Shown here piece by piece: positions 5,218 through 28,313 of a stretch of 64,000 bases of DNA. Under the pieces are notes generated by a model. The model saw only the letters and a program-made list of their open reading frames with translations, was not told where the DNA came from and made no database searches. The number at the start of each line of letters is the position of its first letter. The first letter of the stretch is position 1. The position numbers and the translations under genes were made by a program. This DNA comes from Kiloniellaceae bacterium (lineage in GTDB: Bacteria; Pseudomonadota; Alphaproteobacteria; Kiloniellales; J153), in contig JAJFGJ010000036.1 of NCBI GenBank assembly GCA_021776175.1, forward strand, positions 124,001-188,000. Reading direction: 5' to 3'.

Positions 5218-5219
5218 GG

Positions 5220-7216: not shown

Positions 7217-7288
7217 CGCAGGTATGAAAGCGCGGGGTAGTTTCTAGAATCTTTCGCACATTTTGTTTTGGGTTGATGGCTGATCTGG

Positions 7289-7417: not shown

Positions 7418-7516
7418 TGCGAATTTCCGCTTTTGGTACTACCCGGCCTCTCTCGCCGCACAGGAACGGCGACCGCTTTCATCCGCTGAGCCGACATTCG
7501 CATTCGCATTGCGCTC

Positions 7517-8263: not shown

Positions 8264-8279
8264 TCAGCCGCTCCGATTA

Positions 8280-9571: not shown

Positions 9572-9572
9572 G

Positions 9573-10199
9573 CTATAGGCCGTCGGCGAGCACCTGGTCG
9601 AGGGACGCCTTGGGGAAAACATCGAGGGCACTGCCAGGCGTGCAGTTGACGACGGATACGCCGATCGCATCCAAGGCATGAGCTAATCCCTCGAAGTGTG
9701 GTAAAAAAATATCGCGAAACAGATTGGGCCGGGTTGGCCAATCTTCGTGATCGCCGAACCAATGGGTGCGACCGTCCGCGCCCGGTTTCATGTCGTAGCC
9801 GAGCAGCAAAATGCGCCGGGCGCCCAGATGCACGGCCAGGTTGATCGCCTGATAGCCGCCGTTGCGCCCGGTTCGCAGACCGCGCGGGTCGCGTTCCAGG
9901 CCCCCGGTCCCGGTGTTTTCCAGAATTCCGATAGCCGGCCAGTCGCGGACCAGATCGGCGCTGTTGGACAGGGTCACCTTCAGGTTCTTGAAGGCAGGCA
10001 CGCCGCCGTGCTTGCGCCACCAGCGCCCATCGCAGGCGTAGAGAACCTCGGCCCAGGGCGCCAAGCGCCAGGCGTCGTTGACGGCGATGGTCCGCGTCTT
10101 GTCGCGCAGCGCCCTAACTTGCGCCGCCGTCAGGCTCGGCCCGCCGCCAAGGCACGCGAAGGTCTCCCCCGGCCACAGGCAAGGCGCGGTCCAAGCCAC
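9573..10199 (-). CDS. DUF115/MptE-like glycan-associated Rossmann protein
   Basis: The 208-residue protein opens with FACLGGGPSLTAAQVRALRD, then TIAVNDAWRLAPWAEVLYAC, and later GYQAINLAVHLGARRILLLG followed by YDM. This is the DUF115 (MptE-like) pattern, a Rossmann-type fold seen in flagellin/glycan modification loci and in many phages. It begins 10 bases after the tail-terminator gene and leads the four-gene cassette. A role in providing or transferring a nonulosonate-like or other sugar is possible but not shown by the sequence. Confidence 0.7.
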   Translation of the reverse strand: MAWTAPCLWPGETFACLGGGPSLTAAQVRALRDKTRTIAVNDAWRLAPWAEVLYACDGRWWRKHGGVPAFKNLKVTLSNSADLVRDWPAIGILENTGTGGLERDPRGLRTGRNGGYQAINLAVHLGARRILLLGYDMKPGADGRTHWFGDHEDWPTRPNLFRDIFLPHFEGLAHALDAIGVSVVNCTPGSALDVFPKASLDQVLADGL

Positions 10200-10209
10200 C
10201 GCCGCCTTG

Positions 10210-10623
10210 TCAGGTCGCCTGGGTGATGGCCCGGAAACGTTGCACGCCGTGGCGGGTCAGGCCGTCGCTATCGAGGAACGTCGTGCCGAATTCGAAACGC
10301 AAGAGAATGAGGGTATGTCCAACCAGATTTAGCGCTTGCTGGTCCAGGGCATTCGTGACCGCGGCCATGATGTCTTTTATTTCCTTTAGGCCCCGGTAAC
10401 GCGACCAGGCGTGGAGCGTCAGGGTTTGCTCCATGCCGTCCTGGGTCTTGGCGTCGAAAGGAGACGAGGATGCTTCGCCGATAACGAGGTAGGGAAAAGC
10501 GCTCTCAGGCGGAACATGGTCGAAAATACGTGCCGGATCTCCGATCAAGGATTTAACACCCGCGTCCGCGTTCAAGGCGGCGAAGATCGCGGCCTGCAAG
10601 GCCCATTGCGAATCGGCGCTCAT
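10210..10623 (-). CDS. Tail terminator/completion protein (DUF3168, GTA gene 8 type)
   Basis: The 137-residue protein begins MSADSQWALQAAIFAALNAD, followed by IFDHVPPESAFPYLVIGEAS and LTLHAWSRYRG. These are the conserved blocks of DUF3168, the tail terminator of HK97-like phages and GTAs. It starts four bases inside the HK97-gp10-like gene. In GTAs the next gene is the major tail protein. Here a 4.5-kb insertion separates them. Confidence 0.88.
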   Translation of the reverse strand: MSADSQWALQAAIFAALNADAGVKSLIGDPARIFDHVPPESAFPYLVIGEASSSPFDAKTQDGMEQTLTLHAWSRYRGLKEIKDIMAAVTNALDQQALNLVGHTLILLRFEFGTTFLDSDGLTRHGVQRFRAITQAT

Positions 10624-11012
10624 GAGCGGTTACCCCGAAAAGCGTCGCGCGCGGCTGCCCGTAATCGCGCCTTGATCCTGTCCTTGCTTGCTTCGAAAGC
10701 AGGGTGCAGCCAGGGCCGTGCCGCCATGCGCTGGGTGCCGAATTCCAGCTGCGCCCCATAGTCCAGGTCGGTCCCGACCTCCGCCGAAAGACCATCGGCG
10801 CTCACACGGGCGAATATACTGTCGCGCAGCCGCCCGCTATCCAGGCGCGGCGGCTCGCCCGGCCGCGAGGCCCCGCCGGCACCCGGCTTACCGACCAATT
10901 CCCGCGCCGTCTCGCGCAGGTCTTGCGCGCTTTCGGCCACGGCCCGCGCCAGGATATCCCGGCGCAACTTTAGTTTGCGTAGGCGAATCACGTGGCCACC
11001 CCTTCCTCGCAC
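10620..11012 (-). CDS. HK97 gp10-like head-tail/tail-associated protein
   Basis: The 130-residue protein has the HK97-gp10 pattern: LVGKPGAGGASRPGEPPRLD, then SGRLRDSIFARV, VGTDLDYGAQLEFGTQRMAA and RPWLHPAFE. These are conserved loops of the gp10/neck family that joins head to tail. It overlaps both neighbours, 25 bases with the head-tail adaptor and 4 with DUF3168. Canonical GTAs usually lack this gene at this point, so the neck set is more phage-like. Confidence 0.82.
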   Translation of the reverse strand: MRGRGGHVIRLRKLKLRRDILARAVAESAQDLRETARELVGKPGAGGASRPGEPPRLDSGRLRDSIFARVSADGLSAEVGTDLDYGAQLEFGTQRMAARPWLHPAFEASKDRIKARLRAAARDAFRGNRS

Positions 11013-11338
11013 AAGAGTTCGAGCACGCGGTGGTGCTCTCCAACATCGACAACGGCGCGGATGTTGAATGTCCGCGCGCCAAAGGCAAAACGCATGTCGC
11101 CGGTCACGCCCAGGCGGTAGCGAATCGAGATGCGATGCGTCACGCGGTTTTCCAATTTCATGGCCCGCAGGCGTTCGTTCCCGTTAAGCGGCATGATGTC
11201 GCCCCAAACGGTCGCCAGCGTGACCGGGGCCGCCCAGGGATCGCCGGCCTGCCCGCCGCCGCCGTCGCCAGCCGGATTCCGGGTCTGCAAAATCAGCCGA
11301 TGGCGCAGCCGCCCGGCCGCGGCCCTCGTTGTGTTCAT
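10988..11338 (-). CDS. Head-tail adaptor/joining protein (GTA gene 7 type)
   Basis: The 116-residue beta-barrel-type protein has AAAGRLRHRLILQTRNPAG, WGDIMPLNGNERLRAMKLEN and VTHRISIRYRLGVTGDMRFA. These are the normal features of the TIGR01563 head-tail joining family (HK97 gp7/SPP1 gp16-like stopper). It sits one base from the connector gene and overlaps the gp10-like gene, so translation is likely coupled. Confidence 0.85.
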   Translation of the reverse strand: MNTTRAAAGRLRHRLILQTRNPAGDGGGGQAGDPWAAPVTLATVWGDIMPLNGNERLRAMKLENRVTHRISIRYRLGVTGDMRFAFGARTFNIRAVVDVGEHHRVLELLCEEGVAT

Positions 11339-11339
11339 G

Positions 11340-12002
11340 TTACAGACGCGCCACGGTCAGGGGCCGCCACAGGGCACCGGCACCCGATGCGCTCAACGCC
11401 GCCTCGGCCGCGTTATCGCCGCGATTCTCGAAGAGATAGGCCGCCAGCTGAACGATGCCTTGGCGTAGGCGCGCGGGCACGTCCCCCGGCGCGCCACCGT
11501 GACCGGCGACGAAGCGGACCTCGATTCCGTTGGCCACACGCCCCGGCACCGGGAAGGCCTGTCCCGCACGCGCCACGAGACGCCCAGGGAGCCCCGCCGT
11601 ATCGGCGAAGTACGCGCTTGCGGGCCACAGAACCTCCGTATCGTCTTCCGCGAAGGTCTTGACGTGCACCACCGACTGCAAAGGCGGCCGCGGCAAAACC
11701 AGGATGCGGGCACTTGCCCTCCCAAGGGTTCCCTCACACCAACCTTCGCGCAAGGGAGCGCCGGGTGTTTCTATCGGCCAGGCATCGCGGAAGAGCGTCC
11801 ATGTTTGCGTGATCAACGACCGCCCCGTGGAAACCTCGCACGCCTCGGTCGCGGATCGCAGAGTCGCGAGCAGGATCGCGTCTTCGACGGTTTGATCATC
11901 GTCAAGGCGCAATTGCGCCCTCAGCTCGTTAAGATCCACCGGCAAGCGAGCCGGCGGCGCCGTGAGCTGGAGTTTCAGCGGGTTTCGCATCTCAGGGTCC
12001 AA
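11340..12002 (-). CDS. Head-tail connector protein (gp6-like, GTA gene 6 type)
   Basis: The 220-residue protein has LPVDLNELRAQLRLDDDQTV, LRSATEACEVSTGRSLITQT and GNGI-type C-terminal beta strands, ending with DVPARLRQGIVQLAAYLFEN. This is the TIGR02215/phage_gp6 connector family that binds below the portal. An ATG at 11990 is an alternative start that would reduce the 28-base overlap with the upstream gene. Confidence 0.85.
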   Translation of the reverse strand: MDPEMRNPLKLQLTAPPARLPVDLNELRAQLRLDDDQTVEDAILLATLRSATEACEVSTGRSLITQTWTLFRDAWPIETPGAPLREGWCEGTLGRASARILVLPRPPLQSVVHVKTFAEDDTEVLWPASAYFADTAGLPGRLVARAGQAFPVPGRVANGIEVRFVAGHGGAPGDVPARLRQGIVQLAAYLFENRGDNAAEAALSASGAGALWRPLTVARL

Positions 12003-12259
12003 CTTCTCTCCACGGTTCGTCCAAAAGCAGTCGTGATGGTATTGGTCAGCCGATAGACTTGACCGGCTTGCGCGCCCGACAGAAAGACGCGGGTCACGGT
12101 GCCCGCGACAGAGGCGCCGGACAGCGCGGGACCGGTGGGATCGACCGACCAGAGACTGGTTTGAATCGTATCGCCCGGGCCTCCGCCGTCGGCCAGGAAA
12201 TCAACCCAGTCGCAGGCGTAATCGAGCGTTTCATCGGGATCTATCAGACGGTATGGCAT
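11975..12259 (-). CDS. Phage fibre/tail adaptor-like protein (94 aa)
   Basis: The start at 12259 (MPYRLIDPDETLDYACDWVD) overlaps the upstream stop as TGATG, which supports it over a longer frame opening at 12355. The rest is beta-rich: QTSLWSVDPTGPALSGASVA, then VFLSGAQAGQVYRLTNTITT and WTLRC. This matches small proteins annotated as phage fibre-tail adaptors, with an Ig-like fold and WTVP-type strands. It lies just upstream of the connector gene. Confidence 0.65.
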   Translation of the reverse strand: MPYRLIDPDETLDYACDWVDFLADGGGPGDTIQTSLWSVDPTGPALSGASVAGTVTRVFLSGAQAGQVYRLTNTITTAFGRTVERSWTLRCETR

Positions 12260-12531
12260 CAGGGATAGAGATCCTGTTTGGTTACGACGATATGGACCCG
12301 CGCGCCCTCGTCCTTGACGTAGCAACGCACGCCGTCGAGCTCGGCATAAAGCCATTGTTCGCGGCGTGCGCGGGGTGTGCAGGCATGTTTTATGGCGTTG
12401 CGTTTGCGAAGCTTCGAGCCAGAAACATCCGGGTAGATGGTCAAGGCGACCCGGCCGTTGGTCGCATGCTGTTCTTCGCCATCCGCGCCGGCGATGGAGA
12501 ACTCGGGCGAGGATTGTGCGCTTTTAGTCAC
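12259..12531 (-). CDS. Small phage structural/accessory protein (90 aa)
   Basis: I do not recognise this protein. It is 90 residues, hydrophilic, basic in the middle (SGSKLRKRNAIKHACTPRAR) and ends WLYAELDGVRCYVKDEGARV then HIVVTKQDLYP. The compact operon spacing (stop/start overlap downstream, five bases upstream) makes it a real gene of the head region. Confidence 0.6.
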   Translation of the reverse strand: MTKSAQSSPEFSIAGADGEEQHATNGRVALTIYPDVSGSKLRKRNAIKHACTPRARREQWLYAELDGVRCYVKDEGARVHIVVTKQDLYP

Positions 12532-12536
12532 GGCGA

Positions 12537-13088
12537 TCAGATCTCGTCGTAGGCGAAAGTCAGCGTCTCGGCCGCGAGAACGCCGTTACCGGCGGCCGGT
12601 TCGACCTCCATGACCAGAACCAGGAAATCGCCGATCTCTTCGAACGGAGATCCATCGGTAAAGGGCCCGGTGTTGATCGCGTCCAGGTCTATGGGGCTGC
12701 CTTGGGTGGCGGTGAAAAAGTCGGACATGTTTTCGACCGGCGAACCGGCGGCGACCGATTGCGGCGGATCCGCCGCCTCGTTGGGCACGACAGGCTGCGT
12801 ATAGGCGCCGGTCACGGCATGCCAGAGTTTAACGCCGGCACCGAAGCCGTTGGCGCCATCCGAATAGGCGCGCAGGTTGGTGATCTGCGTGAAAGCGCCG
12901 CCTGCTATTTCCAGACGCAGCCATTTCTCGAAGGAATATTCCTGGCCGCTGCCCGGTACGACGAGGGGGTCGTTCAGATCGATATTCGCGTCGTCGGCGT
13001 TTTTGAAGCGGATCGTTCCCGCCGTCTTGTTGCTTCTGATGCCGGGCGCGAGCCCATTGTATTCGTTGATAACGACGTTCGCGGCCAT
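12537..13088 (-). CDS. Phage structural protein, probable decoration/fibre component (183 aa)
   Basis: The 183-residue protein starts MAANVVINEYNGLAPGIRSN and has several predicted beta strands (SFEKWLRLEIAGGAFTQITN; GDFLVLVMEVEPAAG). It also contains an Asp/Asn/Gly-rich segment (FKNADDANIDLNDPLVVPGS). Its acidic, beta-rich character and its place between the LamG protein and the small head genes suggest a virion surface protein. No family is assigned. Confidence 0.6.
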   Translation of the reverse strand: MAANVVINEYNGLAPGIRSNKTAGTIRFKNADDANIDLNDPLVVPGSGQEYSFEKWLRLEIAGGAFTQITNLRAYSDGANGFGAGVKLWHAVTGAYTQPVVPNEAADPPQSVAAGSPVENMSDFFTATQGSPIDLDAINTGPFTDGSPFEEIGDFLVLVMEVEPAAGNGVLAAETLTFAYDEI

Positions 13089-13089
13089 A

Positions 13090-14520
13090 TCAATGCCTCC
13101 TGTTGCCGGATGGAATCACGCTTCGCCGCCGCCCGCCCGCGACTCTGTGGCCGCCGCGCGCGGCGGCCTTGAAAGTCCGGCTGCCGGCCGCCGCGGCCAC
13201 CAGGCCGAGAATCGCGTCCATCGCGGCGGCACGGCTAGGCGTCGCGCGCAGAATGCCCTGCAATGCGGTGCTGGAAATTCGATCCCCACGCCGCGCCACG
13301 GCGTCGAGCCCGGCGGTGCCCTGAAAGTTCAACGCAAGCCAGGCATCCAACGCGGCCGTGTCATGCTTCGGCGCGCGCAGCGTCGCCTCAAGCGCTCCGC
13401 TCAAGAGATTGAGACTTCGGATCGCGGCATCCAGCGAGGCGCCGCTCTGAGCGGCGCCTTGCACGCTCAGATTAGCGTCGAGACCGGCGCCAAGGCCGAG
13501 CGCACGAGCCAGCGCGGTGTCGAGATCCGCCTGCGCCTGCCTTACCGCCTGGACCGCGAGATCTAGGCTCGCGCCCCTTGAGGCATTGGCCCGCAGGGCC
13601 GCGCCAACCAGGGCCGACAAGACGGCTTCGGCACGCAAGGCGGCATCGCTGGACGCCAAGATATTCCCTTGGCGCCGCACCGCCACGTCCAGCGCCCCAA
13701 TGGCGGTGCGCGAAACCGCACCCCCGCCCGCCGCCGTGGGCCACACGCGCAGCACGCGGTTCTCGCGGTACAGGTCCCAGCGCGTGGCGGGATCGTACAG
13801 CGCCCAAACCTCGCGAGCTGACAGCGCCCGGTCGTAGATACGCACGTCGGCCATGGCGCCGTCGAAGTGGCGGCTCTCGGCCTCACGATGTCCTAAGAAA
13901 ACGCCCCGAGCGGACGAGGGTATATTGCCTGAACCAACCTTGTTCGCGACCTCTACGCCATTTCTGTACAGCCGCATGGCCGTACCGTCATAAGTTCCGA
14001 TCCAGTGTTGCCAATTACCTGTAGGAAGTGTCGTTTGAAATATAAGATCGGTATTGCCACCGATGCGAAACCAGACGCCAGCGTCAGCCCCTGGAGAAAG
14101 CGAGAATATTGAATAAACATCCGATCCGCCCGCGTCGGTGCGCTTCGAGAGGAAACGACTTCCACCCGAGGTTCCTGCTGTATCCGGCTTGATCCAGGCG
14201 CACAGCGTGATCTCGTTGCCGGTGATGTCGAGCGCCGCGACATTGCCGCCCGCGACGTGGGCCTCGTCGCCGCCATCGAAGTCGAGGGCATGGGCGTTTG
14301 TCGCCGCCGCCGCGATCCAGCTTGGCGTCTCGGCGCCCGCCCCCAGAACCAGATGCGCACCACCGCCCGAAACATCCCGAAGGCCGATACCCGGCCCGGC
14401 GAACAGCGGCCAGCACGCGGCCAGCCCCTTGGCCTGGGGGCTGGCGCGGTCGATCTCGAAGGGCCAGCGCGGGGCGTGATTACCGACCGCGTGGCGGAAG
14501 TGCGCGGGGTCGAAGCGCAT
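13090..14520 (-). CDS. LamG/concanavalin-like lectin virion protein with Ala-rich C-terminal half
   Basis: The 476-residue protein has a LamG-type jelly-roll at about residues 60-235. Its features are LDFDGGDEAHVAG, ITLCAWIKPDTAGTSGGSRF, WQHWIGTYDGTAMRLYRNGV and ADVRIYDRALSAREVWALYD, the last being the classic end of LamG domains. After WDLYRENRVLRVWP (a common phage ending) it continues for about 220 Ala/Leu-rich residues with loose repeats (SLDLAVQAVRQAQADLDTAL) and a strongly basic tail. This is probably a head-fibre or tail-fibre-like adhesin binding surface glycans. It is absent from canonical GTA clusters. Confidence 0.75.
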   Translation of the reverse strand: MRFDPAHFRHAVGNHAPRWPFEIDRASPQAKGLAACWPLFAGPGIGLRDVSGGGAHLVLGAGAETPSWIAAAATNAHALDFDGGDEAHVAGGNVAALDITGNEITLCAWIKPDTAGTSGGSRFLSKRTDAGGSDVYSIFSLSPGADAGVWFRIGGNTDLIFQTTLPTGNWQHWIGTYDGTAMRLYRNGVEVANKVGSGNIPSSARGVFLGHREAESRHFDGAMADVRIYDRALSAREVWALYDPATRWDLYRENRVLRVWPTAAGGGAVSRTAIGALDVAVRRQGNILASSDAALRAEAVLSALVGAALRANASRGASLDLAVQAVRQAQADLDTALARALGLGAGLDANLSVQGAAQSGASLDAAIRSLNLLSGALEATLRAPKHDTAALDAWLALNFQGTAGLDAVARRGDRISSTALQGILRATPSRAAAMDAILGLVAAAAGSRTFKAAARGGHRVAGGRRRSVIPSGNRRH

Positions 14521-14927
14521 TAGACCTGATCCACGGACACCGGGACGTAGCGTAGGGCGTTGCCGGCCGAGGCCAGGGCGGCGCCGGAATTATTGAACAC
14601 GCGGAATTTCACATGGCGGGCGTGAACCGGCATCGTGAAAACCTTGACGGCCGCCGTGGTCCCGTTCATCTGCACCGCGCCGACCAGAAGATCGTTGTCC
14701 GAATCGGAAAAGTCCGCATTCTCGTTCGACCACTGAGCATAGATTTCAACCAGACCCGTCGCGCCCGCCGCCACGCCGTCGAGCTTGACTTCCAGGCTCA
14801 GGGCGAATGGGCCGGGACTGCCTAGGTCCTTGGCTGTGGCGACCACAGAGGCGGCATCGGCCAGACTGTCGAGAGAAATGGTGACCGCCGTATCGGTGCC
14901 GAAATTTTGTCGGATGTCTTCAGCCAT
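14520..14927 (-). CDS. Phage structural protein (135 aa)
   Basis: The protein starts MAEDIRQNFGTDTAVTISLD and contains LSLEVKLDGVAAGATGLVEI, QWSNENADFSDSDNDLLVGA and VHARHVKFRVFNNSGAAL. This is a single beta-sandwich-like domain, as in phage decoration or fibre-base proteins. Its stop overlaps the start of the LamG gene by one base, so the two are probably made in fixed ratio and may interact. No named family is recognised. Confidence 0.6.
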   Translation of the reverse strand: MAEDIRQNFGTDTAVTISLDSLADAASVVATAKDLGSPGPFALSLEVKLDGVAAGATGLVEIYAQWSNENADFSDSDNDLLVGAVQMNGTTAAVKVFTMPVHARHVKFRVFNNSGAALASAGNALRYVPVSVDQV

Positions 14928-15046
14928 GGGTCAGGTCCCGAATTCTGTCTAGGCAAACGCTTTCCTGCCACCCAATGCGCCGGAAAAAGAGCCGGCGGGG
15001 CCGAAGCCCCGCCGCAGGCACAGGGAGGTCGATCGAAGTACTAGGC

Positions 15047-15502
15047 TCAAATCGCCGGGGCGTGGCGTGGATGGCCCCGGTTCACGATCACGCCCGCGGG
15101 ACCGCCAACGGTCAGGGCCGTCGGCGTCAAGGTGGCGCGAATGAAACGTTTGCCGCCAAGGTAGCCCAAGGTAACCGGCACCAGGTCGTTGGTTGGGCTC
15201 GCGACAATGCCGGCGGCGATGCCGCTGACGCCGCTTACATCGGCGTCGGTCACGTTGGCATAGGTGCCGGGCACGCCGCTGCCGTCGTCATCGGCATGTT
15301 CAAGCTTGACGGCGATCTGCGCGGAGCCGATTGGCGGAACGCCCATTTCGACGATATCGCCAAAATGAACGACGATCTGCGCGGCGTTGAAGCCGGCCAG
15401 ATCGACGTCACCGGACACCAGCGCGCCGCTGGCCTGATTGATCGTCTGGGCCACGAGGGCCTGAACCGGGGCGAGGTTGCTGTTTAGGTCTTGCATGGTC
15501 AT
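15047..15502 (-). CDS. Capsid-proximal structural/decoration protein (151 aa)
   Basis: The start at 15502 (MTMQDLNSNLAPVQALVAQT) is set by an AGGAGG ribosome site eight bases upstream. The protein lies 13 bases after the capsid gene. The body resembles head-associated beta proteins: VHFGDIVEMGVPPIGSAQIA, VKLEHADDDGSGVPGTYANV and GYLGGKRFIRATLTPTALTV. Such proteins following HK97-type capsids often decorate the head or close its vertices. Confidence 0.65.
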   Translation of the reverse strand: MTMQDLNSNLAPVQALVAQTINQASGALVSGDVDLAGFNAAQIVVHFGDIVEMGVPPIGSAQIAVKLEHADDDGSGVPGTYANVTDADVSGVSGIAAGIVASPTNDLVPVTLGYLGGKRFIRATLTPTALTVGGPAGVIVNRGHPRHAPAI

Positions 15503-15515
15503 GTGCGATCCCTCC

Positions 15516-16679
15516 TTAGGCGCTGACTTTGAGCTTGCGAATCGCTTCGGCCAGAACCACCTGCCCGCCGACGCGGCGCCGGGCGATAAAGCGGATGTTC
15601 CCACTGGTCGCCTGGGTAAAGGGATCGCGCAGGATCGACAGACTGATCCTATCGACAATCGTATAAGCACGGCGCAGGTCGCCGAAGACGATCGGCACGG
15701 CGCCGGCCGCCACGTCCGGCATGTCTGGAACTTCGAGATATGGCTGACCGAGAATCGTGTTCGCCACGCCGTTGGCCAGGCCGGGCTGCCAGATATAGTT
15801 GTTCTGGCCGTCCTTCATCTTGCGGACCTCGCCCAGGGTCGCCCGGTTGAGCAACCACCAGCCTTGCAGGGCATAGCCGGTCTTTAGGTCGTGGTATAGA
15901 TCGATCAAGCCGTTTGCTTGACCAGTGGCGTCGGCGATGCTGGCGGCGCTGCCGCTGACCGTCTCGCCGACTTCGCTGTTTTGAAGAATACCCTCGGGCT
16001 TTCCGCTACCGTTCCCGGTTACGAAGGCGGCGCCCTCGGTCACCGCGAATTGCTCGGAGAATTCTTGTTGCAGCTCCTGGTCGAGGCTGAATTCCGAATC
16101 TTCCATCATCTGCTCGGAGACATCGAGCAAGGCATAGAGCTCGTGGGTCGGAAATTCCTCGAGCCCGTAAGTCAGGCCCTCGGTTGCGCCGCGCACCGCC
16201 GATTCGGCGGTCCAGAGCGCCCCGAAGGACCCACGCCGCTTTGGCATCTGCAAGGACCGGCGGGAAGTCTGGCGAACCCGGGCAACCGCGCGCAGCGGCG
16301 AGAATTCGACCTCGGACTTGATGATCTCACGCGCGAACTCAACCGGCGCCAAGTACCCCGCCGTCGGGTCGGTGCCGACACTCAGCGCTTTCATTTCCTC
16401 GCGGGTCAAAGCCGCGCCGCCTGGGCTCGGCTCATCGCGGGTGCCATGGCGCAAATAATCGAAATAGGCTTTTGCCTCGGCCCCGTAGGCGGGCCCGCTG
16501 TCAGGCGCCAAGGTGCCGCGGTTCGCGCGGCGAATGACGCCTTCGAGTTGATCCATGCGCGTGTTCATTTTCGCCAAGGCTTCCTGATCGCGGCCAGCCC
16601 GGCGGTTGTTTTGGTCCTGAAAGGCGGTCCAGGTTCGGCCCAATTCGTCGACCGCGTCCTTGACCTGTACGATATCCAT
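15516..16679 (-). CDS. HK97-family major capsid protein
   Basis: The start at 16679 (MDIVQVKDAVDELGRTWTAF) follows AGGAGG by six bases. The product is 387 residues, with an N-terminal coiled-coil scaffold (about residues 1-60). Its HK97 fold includes SVGTDPTAGYLAPVEFAREI, RSLQMPKRRGSFGALWTAES, QLQQEFSEQF-type spine helices, GWWLLNRATLGEVRKMKDGQ, and LGQPYLEVPDMPDVAAGAVP with GDLRRAYTIVDR. This is the Phage_capsid/TIGR01554 pattern, as in GTA gene 5. The scaffold would be removed by the protease encoded just upstream. Confidence 0.95.
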   Translation of the reverse strand: MDIVQVKDAVDELGRTWTAFQDQNNRRAGRDQEALAKMNTRMDQLEGVIRRANRGTLAPDSGPAYGAEAKAYFDYLRHGTRDEPSPGGAALTREEMKALSVGTDPTAGYLAPVEFAREIIKSEVEFSPLRAVARVRQTSRRSLQMPKRRGSFGALWTAESAVRGATEGLTYGLEEFPTHELYALLDVSEQMMEDSEFSLDQELQQEFSEQFAVTEGAAFVTGNGSGKPEGILQNSEVGETVSGSAASIADATGQANGLIDLYHDLKTGYALQGWWLLNRATLGEVRKMKDGQNNYIWQPGLANGVANTILGQPYLEVPDMPDVAAGAVPIVFGDLRRAYTIVDRISLSILRDPFTQATSGNIRFIARRRVGGQVVLAEAIRKLKVSA

Positions 16680-16739
16680 GAATGTCCTCCTGCCTGGGAA
16701 ATTCCGGCCAGCGTCCTGCCGGCCCATGATGATTCGGTA

Positions 16740-17483
16740 TTAGCGTGAAACCGGCGAACCGGCCGCCACGAGGCCGGCGACACGCCGCAGGCGCGCCGCC
16801 AGATCCTCGAGGCTCCTGGCCGACTCTTGCCCGGCGTCCCGCCTAGGCGTGAGGGCCTTGTACCCGGACCCAACAATGGTCCGGGCCTGCGAGCGGCTGA
16901 ACCCGGCATCCCGCGTCAGGTAGCGCTCGAACTCTCGCTCGCTTGGCAGGCGCGCGCCGGTCCCAGCGCCGCTCAAGCCTTTGACCCGCGCCACACGGGC
17001 GTCCGGGTTGGCGGGAAAGGTCACGACCGAGACCTCCCAAAGATCGATCCGGGTCAAGCGGCGCAACGATTTTTCGCGGTCGAAGCTGGCACCCGTCCGG
17101 GGCACCGAAAATCCGATCGACAGCGCGTCGACCGCGCCGGCGCGCAGCAGAGCCAGGGCCTCGCGCGCCTGTTGAACCTCCAGGATCAAACGCCCCTTGA
17201 CCGCCAGCCCGGCCTGCGTTTCGGCGATCCGCTCCCAAATGCCGATGGGCGCGCGCGGGTCGTGTTGCCACAGCATCTTGACCCGCCGCGCGTGTCCTAA
17301 GCTGTCTCGAAAGGCGCCCGGCTCGATCATATCCCCGGTCCGGTCGGGGGAGCCGAAGGTCGAGGCGAGACCCTCGAAGACCCCGATCTCCTGCCCATCG
17401 TCCGTGCGTTGCGTCGCGAGCGATTTCAGTTCGAAGGGCACGTTCAGGCGCTCCGGCGCCCCGGCGGTGGAAATTACGGCCAT
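16740..17483 (-). CDS. HK97-family prohead protease
   Basis: The start at 17483 (MAVISTAGAPERLNVPFELK) has GGGGAG seven bases upstream, favouring it over the ATG at 17498. The 247-residue protein has the S78 herpes/HK97 protease core: FEGLASTFGSPDRTGDMIEP, the catalytic His in LWQHDPRAPIGIW, and the catalytic Ser in ALSIGFSVPRTG. It ends with DLWEVSVVTFPANPDARV. It cleaves the capsid scaffold during head maturation. Its gene precedes the capsid gene by 60 bases, the usual arrangement. Confidence 0.92.
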   Translation of the reverse strand: MAVISTAGAPERLNVPFELKSLATQRTDDGQEIGVFEGLASTFGSPDRTGDMIEPGAFRDSLGHARRVKMLWQHDPRAPIGIWERIAETQAGLAVKGRLILEVQQAREALALLRAGAVDALSIGFSVPRTGASFDREKSLRRLTRIDLWEVSVVTFPANPDARVARVKGLSGAGTGARLPSEREFERYLTRDAGFSRSQARTIVGSGYKALTPRRDAGQESARSLEDLAARLRRVAGLVAAGSPVSR

Positions 17484-17579
17484 GGCTTGACTCCCCATCG
17501 TTTATGGCAAAATCCGCGCGGGGATGGCCGGTGGGCCCGCCGCGTACTACACTTGACGACTGCATGGAGGACACTTGAG

Positions 17580-18014
17580 ATGAAACGTCTTATCGCGGTG
17601 TTATCGGCCACGGTACTCTTGCTCGCCAGCGCTCCTGCCTGGGCCGGCGGTGGAGGTGGCCATGGGGGCCGTGGCTACGGTCATGGCGGTCACTACGGCA
17701 AAAGCCACGGCTATGGTCACCGTTCGTCCCACGGCCGGCGTCACCATGGCCATGGCGCGGTCATCTTCGGTGCCTTGGCCGGCGGTCTGGTCCTCGGCCA
17801 TCTCTTGACCCGGCCGGCCTACGCCGCGCCGGCTTATCGCGCCCCCGTCAATTATGCCCCGCCGCGCCCGGTTCTCGGCAATTGCCAAGCCACCACCGGG
17901 ACCGGCTATTACCAGGGCCGCCCGGCGCAATTCGGCGGCACCATGTGCTTCGACGGATACGGGCGCGGCTACGTCACCCCCGGCAGCGAATATTTCATGG
18001 GTTATCTGCGCTGA
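17580..18014 (+). CDS. Exported Gly/His-rich small protein
   Basis: The start at 17580 has GGAGG about ten bases upstream. The 144-residue protein has a clear signal peptide (MKRLIAVLSATVLLLASAPA WA). A Gly/His/Arg/Tyr-rich stretch (residues 23-58, ten or more His) could bind metal. After it come a short hydrophobic segment (AVIFGALAGGLVLGHLL) and a C-terminal domain with two cysteines (LGNCQATTGTGYYQGRPAQF, TMCFDGYGRGYVTPG). Similar RcnB/glycine-rich envelope proteins are common in alphaproteobacterial chromosomes. It sits opposite the protease and portal genes and overlaps the portal 3' end by 13 bases. Confidence 0.7.
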   Translation: MKRLIAVLSATVLLLASAPAWAGGGGGHGGRGYGHGGHYGKSHGYGHRSSHGRRHHGHGAVIFGALAGGLVLGHLLTRPAYAAPAYRAPVNYAPPRPVLGNCQATTGTGYYQGRPAQFGGTMCFDGYGRGYVTPGSEYFMGYLR

Positions 18015-19234
18015 GCGGTCCGCTGGGCACTGGGGAAAACATCCCCGCCCTCTAGCGCGCCCAGGCCAACGGCTTGACGCTTTTCGTTGAGGGTCAGGAA
18101 ATCGGCGGCCCTTAAGCGCGCCCAGACTTTCTCGCGCCGAGGCGCCAAGGCCGGTATGTCATCCAAATCGAAGTCGAGCGTCACCTCCCCATCGAATTGC
18201 GGCGCCAGCCAGGCGTTGAATTCGTCGCGCAGGTGGCGAAGCAGCGGGATCACGGTTTCTTCCCATAGGGCCAGGCGCGCCTCGCGATAGTTGGAGTAGG
18301 TATTGTCACCGGGAATACCGAGCAGTTGCGGTGGCACCCCGAAGGCGAGCGCGATATCGCGCGAGGCGGCGTGGCGGGATTCCAGGAAATCCATGTCCTT
18401 GGGCGTGAGACTCATCTCTTGCCAGGATAGTCCGCCGTCCAGCAGCAAGGGCCGACCGGCGTTGCGCGCGCCGCTGAATTGCGCGGCGACTTCTTCCTTC
18501 AAGCGCGCGAACTGCTCGTCGCTGAGATTGGCCGCCTCGGCGCCCTTGGGTTCGTAGACCAGGGCCCCGGAGGGCCTCGCGCCGTTCTGCAACAGCGCCA
18601 TGTTCCATTTGTCCGATTCGTTGCGTTGATCGATCGCCGCCGCCGCCGGCTCGACCGGAGAAAGGCCGTACCAGTCGTCCAGGGGATGAAAGGTTTTCAG
18701 ATGCAGGATCGCGGAACGCCCGGTGACCGGGTCCGCCTCCCAGCGCTGTTCGCCACCGCCAAGGCTATAGAGATATCCTTGCGGCAGGCCGGTTTTACCG
18801 GCGATCACTTTCATGCGGTCCGGTCTCAGGGGCCAAAGCTCGCGCGGAACCCCGGCGCCGCCGGCCGCGACCGCCTCGACATAGCTGTTGCCCGCGATCA
18901 GGAGGTAACCGGTGACGGCCTCGAAGAATTCGCTGCGCGCCATGGCCGGATTGGGCCGCGCCAGCAGCGCCAATACCGGGTGTGTCTCCAGCGCCCGCCG
19001 TCCCGAGTTCAAGTCCTGGAAGGCGCGCCAGGATACCGAGGCGACGGCGCGCGCGATCTGATTGACCGCCCGGTAGGCGACCACATTGCGGCGGTAACCT
19101 TCCTCGGCGAAGGCATCGAAGCGGCGCGGCGACCACACAGCCCGCCCCGGGTTCCGCATGGCGACCAAGGGCCCGGCGGCCGAGGCCTTGGTTTCCTCGA
19201 CCCAGATCGCCTTCCAGGCATTCCTCAGGCTCAT
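18002..19234 (-). CDS. HK97-family portal protein
   Basis: The 410-residue protein has portal family blocks: RNVVAYRAVNQIARAVASVS, the LLARPNPAMARSEFFEAVTG crown/clip region, and LLIAGNSYVEAV. It continues PSGALVYEPKGAEAANLSDE, the HAASRDIALAFGVPPQLLGI active-helix segment and YSNYREARLALWEETVIPLL. It forms the dodecameric ring for DNA entry and corresponds to GTA gene 3. A 233-base gap and an opposite-strand gene separate it from the terminase, which is unusual for this operon. Confidence 0.93.
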   Translation of the reverse strand: MSLRNAWKAIWVEETKASAAGPLVAMRNPGRAVWSPRRFDAFAEEGYRRNVVAYRAVNQIARAVASVSWRAFQDLNSGRRALETHPVLALLARPNPAMARSEFFEAVTGYLLIAGNSYVEAVAAGGAGVPRELWPLRPDRMKVIAGKTGLPQGYLYSLGGGEQRWEADPVTGRSAILHLKTFHPLDDWYGLSPVEPAAAAIDQRNESDKWNMALLQNGARPSGALVYEPKGAEAANLSDEQFARLKEEVAAQFSGARNAGRPLLLDGGLSWQEMSLTPKDMDFLESRHAASRDIALAFGVPPQLLGIPGDNTYSNYREARLALWEETVIPLLRHLRDEFNAWLAPQFDGEVTLDFDLDDIPALAPRREKVWARLRAADFLTLNEKRQAVGLGALEGGDVFPSAQRTAQRR

Positions 19235-19467
19235 ACAAGTATTCCCATTATGTAAGTCATGGCAGAGATCGCCTGAGACGCGCGATTACGATTAAGCGTT
19301 TCGGGGCCAAAAATCAGCGGTTGCGGTATTGACCTTCAACAACTCGTGACTAGGCGTGAACGGAGACTTTGATCCAGATCAATCCCTGACCGCCATGTGC
19401 GCGCGTCTAATTCCCATGACCCACCGATGGTACGTTGAACCGTGGGCCCGAGAAATTCGAGGTGCGT

Positions 19468-20172
19468 ATGGTCGATCTAAAGAAATTACCCCGCAAGCAG
19501 CTCCAGTCGATGGCAACCGCTGGAGTGCAAGTTCTGGAATGCTACCGGGTGCTCCAGAAAAGCAACTCGAATGTCGTCGCCGAGATTCTTCGCGGTCAGG
19601 GAGAGTTCTATGAGCTCGACCATTACCCCAAGGGCGATGTGTGGGATTCGGCTACGCATTCCCAGTATTTTTATCACTCCCACCGGGATGGAGAGCACGG
19701 CCACTTCCATACCTTCCTCAGGGAAAAGGGCATGCCGGAAGATTGCCGCCCGGTTAAGCAATCCGAAGCCAAGTTCATGAGAGAGCGCGACGACAAGATC
19801 AGCCATATCATCGCCATCTCAATGAACCACGCGGGTTTTCCGATCCGCCTGTTCACGACCAACCGCTGGATCACCGCCGACAACTGGTACAAAGCCGACG
19901 ACGTGATCCAGATGCTGGACCGTTTCGAGATGGATCTGGCCTCTCCGTCCTGGCCCGTCAACATCTGGCTTACCGCCATGCTGCGCCTGTTCCGGCCGCA
20001 GATCGTCGAACTGGTCCGCAAGCGCGACGCGACGGTCACGAACTGGCAGCAAGAGCATCCCGATGTGGACGCTTTCGAGGACCGCGGGTGCGATATCACC
20101 TCGGTCCGGAAAATCTCGGTCGCGGCCCAAATCAACCGGGTGAATCAGGCACTCATGTCCGCCGCCGCCTGA
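19468..20172 (+). CDS. Conserved DUF6969-like protein
   Basis: The start at 19468 (MVDLKKLPRKQLQSMATAGV) has GAGG upstream. The 234-residue soluble protein contains a His-rich stretch (HSQYFYHSHRDGEHGHFHTF), then HIIAISMNHAGFPIRLFTTN, RWITADNWYKADDVI and WPVNIWLTAMLRLFRPQI. I associate this layout with DUF6969, of unknown function, though I cannot confirm it. The His cluster suggests a metal site. It lies between terminase and portal on the opposite strand, so it interrupts the packaging genes. Confidence 0.6.
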   Translation: MVDLKKLPRKQLQSMATAGVQVLECYRVLQKSNSNVVAEILRGQGEFYELDHYPKGDVWDSATHSQYFYHSHRDGEHGHFHTFLREKGMPEDCRPVKQSEAKFMRERDDKISHIIAISMNHAGFPIRLFTTNRWITADNWYKADDVIQMLDRFEMDLASPSWPVNIWLTAMLRLFRPQIVELVRKRDATVTNWQQEHPDVDAFEDRGCDITSVRKISVAAQINRVNQALMSAAA

Positions 20173-20203
20173 CCCATTACCAAACAACGCCGCGGGCGCT
20201 CAT

Positions 20204-21580
20204 TCACAGCCCCTCGACGCGCGGTTCGCCGGCCTGGCCCGTGAGCATGAGTTCGCTCAAGGCCCAGACCCGGGCATCGACCCGGTCGGGACTGAAGCCC
20301 GGCGCGGCGCGGTCGAAATCCGCCGTCATGGCGCACATTTGATCCTCCAACTCGGCGAAAGCGCCGACGTGGTGCACCCGGCCTTGCTCGTCGAGCGCGG
20401 CCACGGGTTCGGCGCGCACCGCCTTGCCCCGGCTGGCGCGCACCGCCTTGTAGCTGACACTCGCATCGACGGTGCGCAGGACGTGTTCGATCATTTCACC
20501 GCCGTTGTTCACTTCGCCGATGATGCGATCCGCGTTCCAGCGCCAGTAGGCACTGACGGCGGCGTGGCCCCAGGCATGGGGACTGCCGCGCAGGGACAGA
20601 TCCTCCAGCACGTAACCGTGGCCGTCGGTTCCCAGACCGGCGACGATGATTCCGGTCTCGTCGTTGCGCTCGCCCGAGCCGGCGGCCGGATCGACCGCGA
20701 CCACGATACGCACCAAGTCAGGGGCCGCGCGGCGGCGCAGATCGTCGATGGCGGCCCGGTTCCAGAGCGCGCCGGGCGCTTGTTCCAGGATCTCGCCGTT
20801 CAATTCCTGACGGCCCAGGCGGGTGCCTTCGTAGCGGCGCACGATGCGCTGAATGAAGGCCGGCGCCAGGTTGGTCATGTTGTCGTAGCTCGACCCGCGC
20901 GTGATCGCCGTGTCCGGATCCTCGATCAGGGACTTCAGAACCGCGACCGGCCGGGGCGTGGTGGTCACGCACTGCCGGGGCCGCGCTCCCAGGCGCAGGC
21001 CGAATTGAAGCTGATCCCAGGCCGCCCCGCCATGGCGCCACTTGGCCAATTCGTCGGCCCAGGCCAGATCGTGCTGCGGCCCGCGTAGCTGATCGGGCTC
21101 GACCGCGTTGTAAAGCACCCCTCGGGCGCCGTTGGGCCAGGTCAGGCGCCGTTTCGAGGGTTCGTACAAGGGCCGGAACCCCGGCGGGTGAATGGCCAGC
21201 AAACCGCTCTCGCCCTCGACCAGAACATCGCGCGCGTCGGCCGCCGTCTCCGCGACCAGGGCGACCCTTCGATGGGCCCCGGCGCTCAAGGGCGTGGCGC
21301 CGCACACGCTGGCGCGCACCCATTCGGCGCCGCAGCGGGTCTTGCCGAAGCCGCGCCCGGCCATGACCAGCCAGGTGGTCCAATCGCCCGGCGGCGGCAG
21401 TTGCCGCGGCCGCGCCCAGAAGCGCCAATCGTACAGCAGCGCGGCGGCCCTAGTCTGGCGTATCTCCGCCAGAACCGCGCTCCGCTTCGAGGCGGGCAGC
21501 GATGCCAGCAATACGGCGAGCGAGAAGCCCGCGGAAGTCTTCGGCATCGCCGTCTTCACCGTCTTCGCCGTTGTCGTCAT
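20204..21580 (-). CDS. terL: Terminase large subunit (ATPase/nuclease)
   Basis: The 458-residue protein has the packaging ATPase Walker A VMAGRGFGKTRCGAEW (around residue 72) and a Walker B DLAWADELAKWR. The C-terminal RNase H-like nuclease has its first Asp in RIVVAVDPAAGSGERNDETG and a following IIGEVNNGGEMIEHV strand. This is Terminase_6/TerL of the GTA gene 2 type. It overlaps the small subunit by about 130 bases. An ATG at 21547 is an alternative start, but the LASLPASKRSAVLAEI N-terminus is family-like, so the overlap is probably real. Confidence 0.93.
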   Translation of the reverse strand: MTTTAKTVKTAMPKTSAGFSLAVLLASLPASKRSAVLAEIRQTRAAALLYDWRFWARPRQLPPPGDWTTWLVMAGRGFGKTRCGAEWVRASVCGATPLSAGAHRRVALVAETAADARDVLVEGESGLLAIHPPGFRPLYEPSKRRLTWPNGARGVLYNAVEPDQLRGPQHDLAWADELAKWRHGGAAWDQLQFGLRLGARPRQCVTTTPRPVAVLKSLIEDPDTAITRGSSYDNMTNLAPAFIQRIVRRYEGTRLGRQELNGEILEQAPGALWNRAAIDDLRRRAAPDLVRIVVAVDPAAGSGERNDETGIIVAGLGTDGHGYVLEDLSLRGSPHAWGHAAVSAYWRWNADRIIGEVNNGGEMIEHVLRTVDASVSYKAVRASRGKAVRAEPVAALDEQGRVHHVGAFAELEDQMCAMTADFDRAAPGFSPDRVDARVWALSELMLTGQAGEPRVEGL

Positions 21581-22055
21581 GATGCCCAGCGTGCGGTTTG
21601 AGCGGGCCGGCGAACAAGCCCAGGTGCTTGGCCAGAGCCATCAAGGCCGCCATCTTGCCGTGCAGTTTTATGTGTTGCGTCGTGGTGCCGGCGGTGGTTC
21701 GGCTTTCCGTAATTTCCGAAACCAGGGCCGCCTCCGCGCGGGTCAATTCGCCCGACTCGCGCAAGGCCACGCCTTTCTTCCCCCAAGTGAACAACCCGCG
21801 TGGATCGCCGAATGCGACCTTGGCCAATTCGTTCACCACCCGGTCGGCGGTCAAGCCGGTGCGCGCGGCCCGTGCCGCCTGCGCCTCGGCCACGAAGGCC
21901 ACCACATCGGGCCGGCGCAAAAGTTTATAGCCGTGGGTATGAGCGCAGCTCTTACTATAACCGGCCCGCAAGGCGGCCTGGGTAGCATTCAGATCGACAA
22001 GGTATTCCTCGGCGAAGCGCTGCTGCTTCGCGGTCATGCGCCGGGGCCCCGCCAA
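21450..22055 (-). CDS. terS: Terminase small subunit
   Basis: The 201-residue protein begins with MTAKQQRFAEEYLVDLNATQ, then AALRAGYSKSCAHTHGYKLL. This is the Terminase_2 (pfam03592) DNA-binding N-terminus. A helical oligomerisation part and an acidic stretch (HDDNGEDGEDGDAED) near the C-terminus follow. It is the first gene of the leftward late operon. A classical pfam03592 TerS is more phage-like than the diverged GTA gene 1, so sequence-specific packaging may have been retained. Confidence 0.88.
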   Translation of the reverse strand: MAGPRRMTAKQQRFAEEYLVDLNATQAALRAGYSKSCAHTHGYKLLRRPDVVAFVAEAQAARAARTGLTADRVVNELAKVAFGDPRGLFTWGKKGVALRESGELTRAEAALVSEITESRTTAGTTTQHIKLHGKMAALMALAKHLGLFAGPLKPHAGHHDDNGEDGEDGDAEDFRGLLARRIAGIAARLEAERGSGGDTPD

Positions 22056-22067: not shown

Positions 22068-22143
22068 CGCGCGTTCAATTCTTGAGTGTGATTATGGGTA
22101 GCAGTTTAGCGTTACGCCGGGAAGATGGAAGGCTGTGGAAGTT
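22068..22143. repeat. Intergenic 76-bp repeat, copy 1
   Basis: This matches 23193-23268 without gaps and with about four mismatches. It contains the core GTTACGCCGGGAAG followed by CTGTGGAA. It lies between terS and the oxygenase gene. A third, shorter relative is at 25211-25255. Confidence 0.85.
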
Positions 22144-23192: not shown

Positions 23193-23268
23193 CGCGCGTT
23201 CAATTCTTGAGTGTGATTATGGGTAACAGTTTAGCGTTACGCCGGGAAGATGGTGAGCTGTGGAAGTT
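23193..23268. repeat. Intergenic 76-bp repeat, copy 2
   Basis: This is the direct repeat of 22068-22143 at an offset of 1125 bases, in the same orientation. Copies 1 and 2 bracket the oxygenase gene; copies 2 and 3 bracket hipBA. Confidence 0.85.
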
Positions 23269-26012: not shown

Positions 26013-26534
26013 CTAAAGCCGCCAATGATCGGCCAGCGCGTCCAACGCCAGACGCAGGACCACGATGCCGCCTTGCGGGGCGTGGCCGCGCGCCTTGGCC
26101 CAATCGCGCGCGGCCTCGTCGCACAGGCAGACATGAACCAGGATGCCCGACAGCGGCCCCATGGCCCGCAGAACCTCGGTAACGCTTCCGCGCAGGACGG
26201 CTTGACGCTCGCTCATATCGCGCGCGCCATCGATCCTTGGGCCATGGACTCTCGGGCCGTAGCTCGCGATCACCCGCGGGCTGGCGCCAGATGCGCGCCA
26301 TAGCCGCAACAGCTTCATGCCGGCGTCGAACTGGCGCTGGCCGATCTGATCCCGCGCCAGGTGGCGGTCCAGCACGTTCTGGGTCATGACCCGGCGAAAC
26401 TGGACCCCGGCCTCCTCGCCCGGCTCGCTTTGGATAATATCGCCGTGGCGGTAGCGCTCGGGCGGTCCGATGTCGGCACCCGCGCGCGCCGCCGGGCGCC
26501 GGGGCAGAGAAGGCCGGCCTCTAGGCCTGGTCAC
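26013..26534 (-). CDS. DUF6456 / GafZ-like GTA regulator candidate
   Basis: The GTG start at 26534 overlaps the upstream stop as GTGA, giving 173 residues. The C-terminal domain is DUF6456-like: RQFDAGMKLLRLWRASGASP, DMSERQAVLRGSVTEVLRAM, then GPLSGILVHVCLCDEAARDW and GGIVVLRLALDALADHW. This domain occurs in alphaproteobacterial regulators. By my recollection it forms the part of Rhodobacter GafA, or the separate Caulobacter GafZ, that works with RNA polymerase at GTA promoters. Pairing with a DnaA-domain-IV-like gene just upstream supports that reading. The basic Pro/Arg-rich N-terminus is probably disordered. Confidence 0.6.
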   Translation of the reverse strand: MTRPRGRPSLPRRPAARAGADIGPPERYRHGDIIQSEPGEEAGVQFRRVMTQNVLDRHLARDQIGQRQFDAGMKLLRLWRASGASPRVIASYGPRVHGPRIDGARDMSERQAVLRGSVTEVLRAMGPLSGILVHVCLCDEAARDWAKARGHAPQGGIVVLRLALDALADHWRL

Positions 26535-27169
26535 TGCAGGGTGACCCGTCCCGGCGAGCCGGACTCCGGGACTTGCTTGAGAAGATGAAGCGCCCCATCG
26601 CGCCAGGACCGGACGCCGGCGTCCCGGGCGAGCAAATCCTCGGCCCGGCGGCACCCGTAGAGAACCGTCGTATGGTCGCGGCCCAAGAAGTGACCGATCG
26701 CCGGCAAGGACGCGCCCGCGCACAACTCGCGCACTAAATACATCGTCAGCTGCCTGGGCCGCACCAGGCCGCGGCGTTGGCTGGATCCAAGCAAGTGGGC
26801 CGGCGGGACATTCGATATCTGGGCCACGGCCTTCAAGACACTGATCATGGCCGGCCCGGCCTGGGACGACTTCGCGGTGCCGCGCGCCCCGGCGCCGCCG
26901 GGACCGGATCCATCCGCCCCTGCGGGTCCCCGGCCGGGGGGCGGACTCGTCTCAGGGTCCCCGCCGCGCCGCGCCGCACCGCAGCCGGCACTAGCCGCGC
27001 TTGGTGCGATTATTCCGGCGGCAAGGGCCGCATCGGCGTTCAAGCCCAGGGCCCGCCGGATCGCCGTCGCGGACATCCCGCTTCGCCACATGGCATCGAT
27101 CTGTCCGGGCAACAGGGCCCGCCGACGCGGCCCTGTCATTGATCCGAATTGGCTTGCGTTTTTAACCAT
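26531..27169 (-). CDS. DnaA-domain-IV-like, GafY-type regulator candidate
   Basis: The start chosen is the ATG at 27169 (MVKNASQFGSMTGPRRRALL), though ATGs at 27178 and 27187 are in frame. The 212-residue protein has a short N-terminal HTH-like segment (LPGQIDAMWRSGMSATAIRR) reminiscent of GcrA, and a Gly/Pro/Ala-rich linker (about residues 55-100). The C-terminal DnaA domain IV has RPRQLTMYLVRELCAGASLP, then AIGHFLGRDHTTVLYGCRRA. There is no AAA+ ATPase, so it is not the replication initiator. This layout, coupled with a DUF6456-like gene, matches the DnaA-like half of the GTA activator GafA/GafY. Confidence 0.65.
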   Translation of the reverse strand: MVKNASQFGSMTGPRRRALLPGQIDAMWRSGMSATAIRRALGLNADAALAAGIIAPSAASAGCGAARRGGDPETSPPPGRGPAGADGSGPGGAGARGTAKSSQAGPAMISVLKAVAQISNVPPAHLLGSSQRRGLVRPRQLTMYLVRELCAGASLPAIGHFLGRDHTTVLYGCRRAEDLLARDAGVRSWRDGALHLLKQVPESGSPGRVTLQ

Positions 27170-27172
27170 GCC

Positions 27173-27268
27173 ATGCATAATGCGCATAGCACATAAATCG
27201 TCAAGTATTTTATGCGCTAATCGCATTGAACTTTGTGGAAAACGGTCACGGCAATGCGGACCATGCAT
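27173..27268. promoter_or_regulatory. Operator cluster in the regulator divergon
   Basis: Inverted repeats of the form ATGCR-N5-(C/T)GCAT occur at 27173-27187 (ATGCA..CGCAT), 27212-27226 (ATGCG..CGCAT, perfect) and 27254-27268 (ATGCG..TGCAT). A weaker overlapping site is at 27180-27194 (ATGCG..CACAT). They cover the start regions of both divergent genes. The likely binder is the S24-type repressor encoded rightward, which would control itself and the GafYZ-like operon. Confidence 0.65.
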
Positions 27269-27928
27269 AAGGACGCGCACGCGGTCAGGGCCGCGCGAAA
27301 GGATCTGGAATTGGCCGCGCGGATTCGCGAGCTTCGGCGCTCGCTCGGCCTGTCCCAGGCCACGCTCGCCGAGCTGGTGGGGATCGACCAGTCGAATGTA
27401 TCGCGTTGGGAAAGCGGAGCGATTCCGGATGCCCCCCACATCCGCCGCATGGCTGAACTCGCGGAAGTCCACCCGGCTCAGTTCCGTTACGGCGATACCT
27501 CCCTCGAAACCGGCGCGGGCGACCCCGCCCCGCCCTCCGAAACGGTCGCCGTCGTTGGCTATGTCGGTGCCGGGCAAGAGGTTCTGGCCTACGACGACCA
27601 CGCCTTAGGCGGCGGTCTGGAGGAGGTTAGCGCCCCCGAAGGAGTCGGCGAGTCTTCCATCGTCGCGGTGCGCGTACGTGGCGATTCGATGCACCCCATG
27701 CGCGACGGCTGGCTGCTGTTTTACCGGCGCGAAGATCACGGCGTGCCGGACGACTGTCTCAGCCGCTTGTGCATTGTTAAAGTCGCGGACGAAGGGCCTA
27801 TACTGGTCAAGGAGTTACGCCGCGGTTACAGCGCCAATCATTTCGTCTTGTCGAGCTGGAACGCGCCCCCGATCGAGGATGCCCGGCTCGACTGGGCGGC
27901 GCCGGTTTTATCCATCCGCCCTTGCTAA
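27254..27928 (+). CDS. XRE/S24-peptidase repressor (LexA/CI-like)
   Basis: In-frame starts are ATG 27254 and ATG 27263; a TTG at 27233 is less likely. The 224-residue protein has an N-terminal XRE helix-turn-helix (RIRELRRSLGLSQATLAELV, then GIDQSNVSRWESG). Its C-terminal S24 domain has a VVGYVGAGQEV cleavage-type segment, the nucleophile Ser in VAVRVRGDSMHPMRDGWLLF, and the Lys in ILVKELRRG. Such repressors inactivate themselves upon RecA activation. Its divergent position to the DnaA-IV/DUF6456 operon and the shared operators suggest it is the off switch of the GTA-like cluster or a former prophage. Confidence 0.85.
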   Translation: MRTMHKDAHAVRAARKDLELAARIRELRRSLGLSQATLAELVGIDQSNVSRWESGAIPDAPHIRRMAELAEVHPAQFRYGDTSLETGAGDPAPPSETVAVVGYVGAGQEVLAYDDHALGGGLEEVSAPEGVGESSIVAVRVRGDSMHPMRDGWLLFYRREDHGVPDDCLSRLCIVKVADEGPILVKELRRGYSANHFVLSSWNAPPIEDARLDWAAPVLSIRPC

Positions 27929-27996
27929 ACGCCTCCGCGACGATGGCTCGCTTTCAGGTTTCCCACAGCGATCTTCTTGACGGCTCTCTTCCGAAT

Positions 27997-28011
27997 ATGC
28001 GCGATGCACAT
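27997..28011. promoter_or_regulatory. Further ATGCR-N5-type operator
   Basis: ATGCG-CGATG-CACAT lies 20 bases before the ATG of the 93-aa gene. It has the same form as the weak site at 27180-27194, so the downstream gene may belong to the same regulon. Confidence 0.5.
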
Positions 28012-28031: not shown

Positions 28032-28313
28032 ATGAACGCAACCTCTGACGACAATCTTGACCGGGCGGGCGGACCCGGCGTGGCAAGGGACGCCCGCCGG
28101 GCATCGAGCCGCCTGCGCGAAATGGCGGCCCGCCTCGAACATCGAGCCAGTCTAATTCGCAATGGCGGCTTCAACCCCCAAGCGGAGGTGGAAGCCGGGC
28201 GTCTTGCCGACGATGCCTTCGCGATCCGCTGGGCCTTGCGCCGAATCGCGCCCGAGACAGAGCAGATCGGACAAGTCTTCGCCACCCTGCACGGCCTGGA
28301 CGGCCATCGCTAA
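28032..28313 (+). CDS. Hypothetical 93-aa helical protein
   Basis: The start at 28032 has GGGAGACGAACCG upstream. The protein is highly charged and helical (RRASSRLREMAARLEHRASL; AEVEAGRLADDAFAIRWALR). No domain is recognised. It follows the S24 repressor by 103 bases and has an operator-like site in its promoter region, so it may be a small regulon member, for instance an anti-repressor or effector. That is inference only. Confidence 0.6.
   Translation: MNATSDDNLDRAGGPGVARDARRASSRLREMAARLEHRASLIRNGGFNPQAEVEAGRLADDAFAIRWALRRIAPETEQIGQVFATLHGLDGHR

Follow-up and report, generated by a model that had tools for sequence, protein, structure and literature searches.

In Caulobacter crescentus, GafY and GafZ activate the GTA cluster, and RogA, a LexA-like HTH-S24 repressor, silences gafYZ at the core promoter and hence the GTA, having no direct action on the cluster itself (PMC9632790, PMC11150451). 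RogA (CCNA_00080) is unlinked to gafYZ (CCNA_01111-2), is associated with GGAA-N4-TTCC repeats and has been described as lacking key cleavage residues (PMC9632790). In Rhodobacter capsulatus, GafA, which has a DnaA-like HTH, is positively autoregulated (PMC6363796, PMC9638019) and occupies a region 75-125 bases upstream of terS (PMC9638019). In contrast to the locus described here, CtrA and GtaR govern gafA, no function is predicted for its divergent neighbour rcc01866, and these two papers mention no divergon with an S24 repressor (PMC6363796, PMC9638019).

The window, a 64-kb stretch of DNA from a Kiloniellaceae bacterium (genome G000) to which all positions refer, contains a GTA-like cluster and, next to it, a gafYZ-like pair with a divergent repressor gene (Table 1). 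As has been shown for Caulobacter, a LexA-like repressor appears to control gafYZ at the core promoter, here judged from the sequence alone. In contrast to RogA, this repressor is encoded divergently from gafYZ, keeps the Ala-Gly, Ser and Lys residues, has ATGCR-N5-YGCAT as its probable site and would also cover its own gene and that of a 93-aa protein, p93. In lambda, P22 and similar phages, the repressor gene lies back to back with a divergent early promoter, several palindromic operators occupy the gap and the S24 domain carries cleavage residues. Our locus likewise has a repressor and an activator back to back, several palindromic operators between them and an S24 domain with cleavage residues. 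However, a GafY/GafZ pair takes the place of cro, the neighbouring genes (groEL, bactofilin, terL) are the same in two genera and there is no integrase close by.

Table 1. Features of the GTA-like locus and its putative switch (positions in the window)
Feature	Positions	Strand	Sequence	Remarks
O1	27173-27187		ATGCATAATGCGCAT	exact ATGCR-N5-YGCAT; overlaps O2 and predicted gafY -10; conserved in 5/5 genomes
O2	27180-27194		ATGCGCATAGCACAT	one mismatch; 7 bp offset from O1; 0-1 mismatch in 5/5 genomes
O3	27212-27226		ATGCGCTAATCGCAT	exact; between gafY promoter and repressor start; exact in 4/5 genomes, 1 mismatch in G003
O4	27254-27268		ATGCGGACCATGCAT	exact; at repressor start; kept in G000, G001, G005; lost in G002, G003
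O5	27997-28011		ATGCGCGATGCACAT	one mismatch; 3' of conserved TTGAC -35 of p93
GTA-like head-tail cluster	203..22055	-		terS, terL, portal, protease, capsid, tail genes, DUF2460
terS promoter block	22108..22140	-	TTCCACAG-N9-TTCCCGGCGTAACGCT...CCCATAATCACACTCAAGAATTGAACG	
Second promoter-block copy	23233..23265	-		upstream of the 2OG-Fe(II) oxygenase gene preceding terS
gafZ-like gene	26013..26528	-		DUF6456, 3.3e-10; start approximate
gafY-like gene	26531..27169	-		DnaA domain-IV-type C-terminal HTH, Bac_DnaA_C 2.4e-19
Candidate GafY box	27234..27242	-	TTTTCCACA	upstream of gafY -35; conserved; CTTCCCCAG in G005
CI/LexA-type repressor	27254..27928	+		224 aa; HTH_3/HTH_31 and S24-like domain
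Candidate GafY box	27959..27967	+	TTTCCCACA	upstream of p93 -35 (TTGACG)
p93	28032..28313	+		conserved 93-aa protein; probably two helices; no known family

The cluster runs leftwards from terS and past the window edge, where hub (TIGR02218), NlpC/P60 and megatron-like genes continue the order known from RcGTA. The megatron model was matched at 2e-149, yet with 499.7 bits against a cut-off of 800, and the GTA_TIM domain (PF13547) had no match in the genome, the Caulobacter control being positive. The nearest integrase on the contig is more than 100 kb away and the same neighbours occur in five genomes, as expected of vertical inheritance. In view of the synteny, the hub and the lack of a nearby integrase, yet with GTA_TIM missing and the megatron score below its cut-off, we classify the cluster as GTA-like. 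Two tape-measure-like frames in it (842-2242 and 2722-4011, minus strand) have a nearly identical stretch (GAARDLGFTFASSFEDAVVEGRNLSDVLQGLE...) in common, which looks like a duplication. Between 7517 and 10199 (minus strand) lie frames unlike head or tail genes, of which 7517-8263 appears glycosyltransferase-like by eye and has no Pfam match.

To the right of the cluster follow a HipBA-like pair, a bactofilin-like gene, gafZ and gafY, and divergently the repressor gene, p93, a methyltransferase gene and, further on, groEL (HipBA, bactofilin and groEL were named by eye from the translations). A DnaA domain-IV-like GafY followed by a DUF6456 GafZ is the composition of a GafYZ pair. The module of p93, S24 repressor and gafY-gafZ, with the same sites, is also present in four relatives: G001, G002 and G003 from the same genus and G005 from another (Kiloniellaceae MAGs OFTM28, OFTM267, OFTM296 and OFTM340). 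The order groEL - methyltransferase - p93 - repressor - gafY - gafZ - bactofilin - terL holds for as much of the locus as the contigs contain. Of nine genomes of this family, five have the repressor, and the same five have p93.

An earlier note had proposed a shared operator on both divergent starts and before the 93-aa gene, in the layout of a phage-type bistable switch. All five sites were found where it had placed them, three exact and two with one mismatch, and the CI-like arrangement proved to be conserved in the five genomes. The exact sites, which span 96 bp, have no further exact counterpart in the window. The gafY promoter is predicted from CTTGAC (CTAGAC in G005), followed at promoter-like spacing by CATTAT (CATAAT in G005), which falls inside O1/O2. 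An ATG is kept 7 nt past this -10-like element in four of the five genomes; in G003 that ATG is out of the gafY frame. We took this ATG (27169) as the most likely gafY start, and its distance from the element suggests a leaderless gafY mRNA. O1 and O2 overlap the predicted -10 and are situated just upstream of this ATG. O4 overlaps the repressor ATG at 27254 in G000, though not every relative has its start there; in G005 the site persists with one mismatch although the reading frame there differs. In front of p93, a predicted TTGAC -35 is conserved in all five genomes and O5 comes next, over the expected -10 region; at this position all four relatives have an exact ATGCR-N5-YGCAT.

In the 3.76-Mb genome G000 (39 contigs), the exact motif occurs 12 times, with about 14 occurrences expected at random and 6 for the reversed-pattern control. 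The single-site count is at chance level, and the nine exact matches outside the module are scattered singletons, several of them inside open frames. Chance palindromes in an AT-richer intergenic stretch would account for such background frequencies, yet as an explanation of the module they are practically negligible, as clustering in five genomes and base-level conservation refute them. In G000 as in the four relatives, the module was the one place where at least two exact matches lay no more than 1 kb apart. A stricter search with the extended motif gave 24 places in the five genomes; the module accounts for 14 of these, and the reversed pattern gave 6 in all. The frequency of the motif is unremarkable, and its significance rests on clustering and conservation. 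The regulon reaching terS that the earlier note had envisaged did not emerge, since the window scan detected no site with fewer than two mismatches near terS and the extended-motif matches concentrate in the module only.

Two matches outside the module deserve mention. One exact match downstream of a LysR gene (locus L003; similar in G002 and G003) was discarded, as by eye it resembles a terminator hairpin. Upstream of an aminotransferase gene (L010 1501-1515; G000:C34:31962-31976), a strong match scores 22.1, on par with the operators; G001 and G003 have it too, along with a conserved TGTATGCATAATTCAAAA block. A gene of the GntR/FCD type lies close by. This site may be a second target of the repressor or belong to the GntR/FCD-type regulator.

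The conservation of the sites was examined at the level of single bases. In 170 bp around the divergent gap, 24 of 28 half-site columns of O1-O3 are invariant across the five genomes, compared to 21 of 142 columns outside (Fisher p=4e-13). For O5 in the p93 promoter the corresponding numbers are 9 of 10 and 16 of 95 (p=6e-6). As the alignment had been anchored on the sites and so leans somewhat in their favour, a matrix trained on the relatives' 18 sites alone was scanned over the window. The five sites took ranks 1-5 (26.1, 24.1, 21.8, 21.6 and 13.6), the next score being 12.1. The one-mismatch sites O2 and O5, which had been regarded as the weaker ones, came out on top with O2 first; the weakest is O4, with 13.6 close to the 12.1 of the next chance site. 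Because the five genomes, several of them drafts, are close relatives, they provide limited independent evidence. In G026 (L091, about 2854-2874) and G020 (L097/L098, seemingly split by a contig break), a DUF6456-like gene likewise lies divergent from a CI-type repressor gene, but the HTH of that repressor is a different one and the gap contains a palindrome TAGGGAA-N5-TTCCCTA. This pair was left out of the footprinting on account of the other HTH, the other palindrome and the want of a recognisable DnaA-like gene.

The linked repressor is the natural candidate for the protein that binds these sites: the palindrome is of the dimer type, the sites lie at its own start as well as at the neighbouring genes, and the recognition-helix segment DQSNVSRWE is invariant in all five orthologues (those of the relatives are 64-86% identical). 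Its HTH_3 domain is matched at 2.5e-12 and it matches the repressor family phrog_4 at 1.5e-25; Peptidase_S24 is found at 6.2e-5 with 23.1 bits, just below the cut-off of 23.3. We infer that the S24 protein binds O1-O5, and consider it very probable that ATGCR-N5-YGCAT is its operator, by which it would silence gafYZ, itself and p93.

Alternatively, GafY could bind ATGCR-N5-YGCAT with its DnaA-like HTH and autoregulate the divergon, the S24 repressor acting elsewhere; Caulobacter GafY does bind its own promoter (PMC9632790). We regard this as very unlikely, as the terS promoter, which is the chief target of GafY/GafA, lacks the motif, as gafY, p93 and terS share another, DnaA-box-like element, and as a symmetric dimer site is more in line with an XRE/S24 dimer than with a DnaA-type HTH. 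There is equally little to be expected of an unlinked binder, either host LexA or a class-wide 213-aa LexA-like protein (G000:C30:89776-90405, about 61 kb away). The latter fits the description of RogA and is probably its orthologue; its family is present in G000-G005, and RogA represses gafYZ in Caulobacter (PMC9632790). Yet the family occurs in 51 of 78 genomes searched whereas the motif cluster accompanies only the linked repressor, the RogA-type GGAA-N4-TTCC was found neither in the window nor in loci L016-L020, and the only SOS box GTTC-N7-GTTC in the window is at 30941. In the divergon, a pattern search detected none of GGAA-N4-TTCC, GTTC-N7-GTTC, CtrA TTAA-N7-TTAA and the IHF consensus. 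A CtrA half-site-like TTAACCAT at 27162 was rejected, as it is not conserved in the alignment.

Returning to the linked repressor, all five orthologues keep the residues at the positions for autocleavage, A106-G107, S145 and K186, unchanged. The spacings between them, 39 and 41 residues, are similar in lambda CI and LexA. Since the residues are retained, RecA-stimulated self-cleavage after DNA damage is plausible. The structure model (mean pLDDT 47) was not used, its S24 domain being too poor to judge the geometry. Over the C-terminal part, phage repressors reach up to about 42% identity to the protein, in keeping with a switch that came from a phage. We do not regard the repressor as the RogA orthologue, because two described features of RogA are not found (the cleavage residues are retained, and GGAA-N4-TTCC is missing at the gafYZ promoter) and the genome encodes the separate 213-aa protein; this was judged from the published description of RogA. 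With its Ala-Gly, Ser and Lys residues, its linkage to gafYZ and a different operator, the repressor looks like a functional analogue of RogA that is possibly cleavable upon damage.

The DnaA-box-like element shared by the gafY, p93 and terS promoters reads TTYYCCACA. At terS, the CTTCCACAG box lies 78-85 bp upstream of the start, inside a longer conserved block, a likeness to GafA binding in R. capsulatus. In G005, the gafY and terS elements both read CTTCCCCAG, i. e. they change in concert. In four of the five genomes, a search with the promoter block gave one or two matches per genome, each of them at the GTA locus; the reversed pattern gave one match, in G005. In G001, one copy of the block stands at terS and another before a channel-like gene. 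The element is a candidate GafY recognition site, with DnaA itself as the alternative binder; the three promoters supply a candidate element that the Caulobacter study could not derive. It is also the one feature here that speaks for an activation of the GTA-like cluster by GafYZ.

What the sequence establishes are the sites and how well they are conserved, the module, this shared second element and the cleavage residues still in place; from them we infer which protein binds which site, repression, cleavage, bistability and GTA production as follows. Two half-sites spaced by one helical turn would accommodate a repressor dimer. Bound to O1/O2, it would cover the -10 and the start of gafY and block gafY-gafZ, at O3/O4 it would limit its own gene, and at O5 it would cover the p93 core promoter. 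With gafYZ off, the GTA-like cluster, having no operator of its own, would not be activated. Upon loss of the repressor, plausibly by RecA-stimulated self-cleavage after DNA damage, GafY would rise and bind TTYYCCACA at gafY, p93 and terS, and the positive loop via GafY would commit the cell. The p93 protein occurs in the family's repressor-bearing genomes only, had no family match and no fold match at E<=0.001, and is possibly an antirepressor or a GTA maturation factor.

The full reading can be offered only tentatively, our doubts slightly outweighing our confidence: a GTA-like cluster would be directly controlled by a linked, self-cleavable CI-type repressor, DNA damage would lead to particles via gafYZ, with GafY acting through TTYYCCACA at gafY, p93 and terS, and p93 would be a co-released factor. 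GTA production kills the producer, and so the question of how cells keep the GTA off and release it is a central one. A phage-style repressor with intact cleavage residues adjoining the GTA activators would tie particle release to DNA damage.
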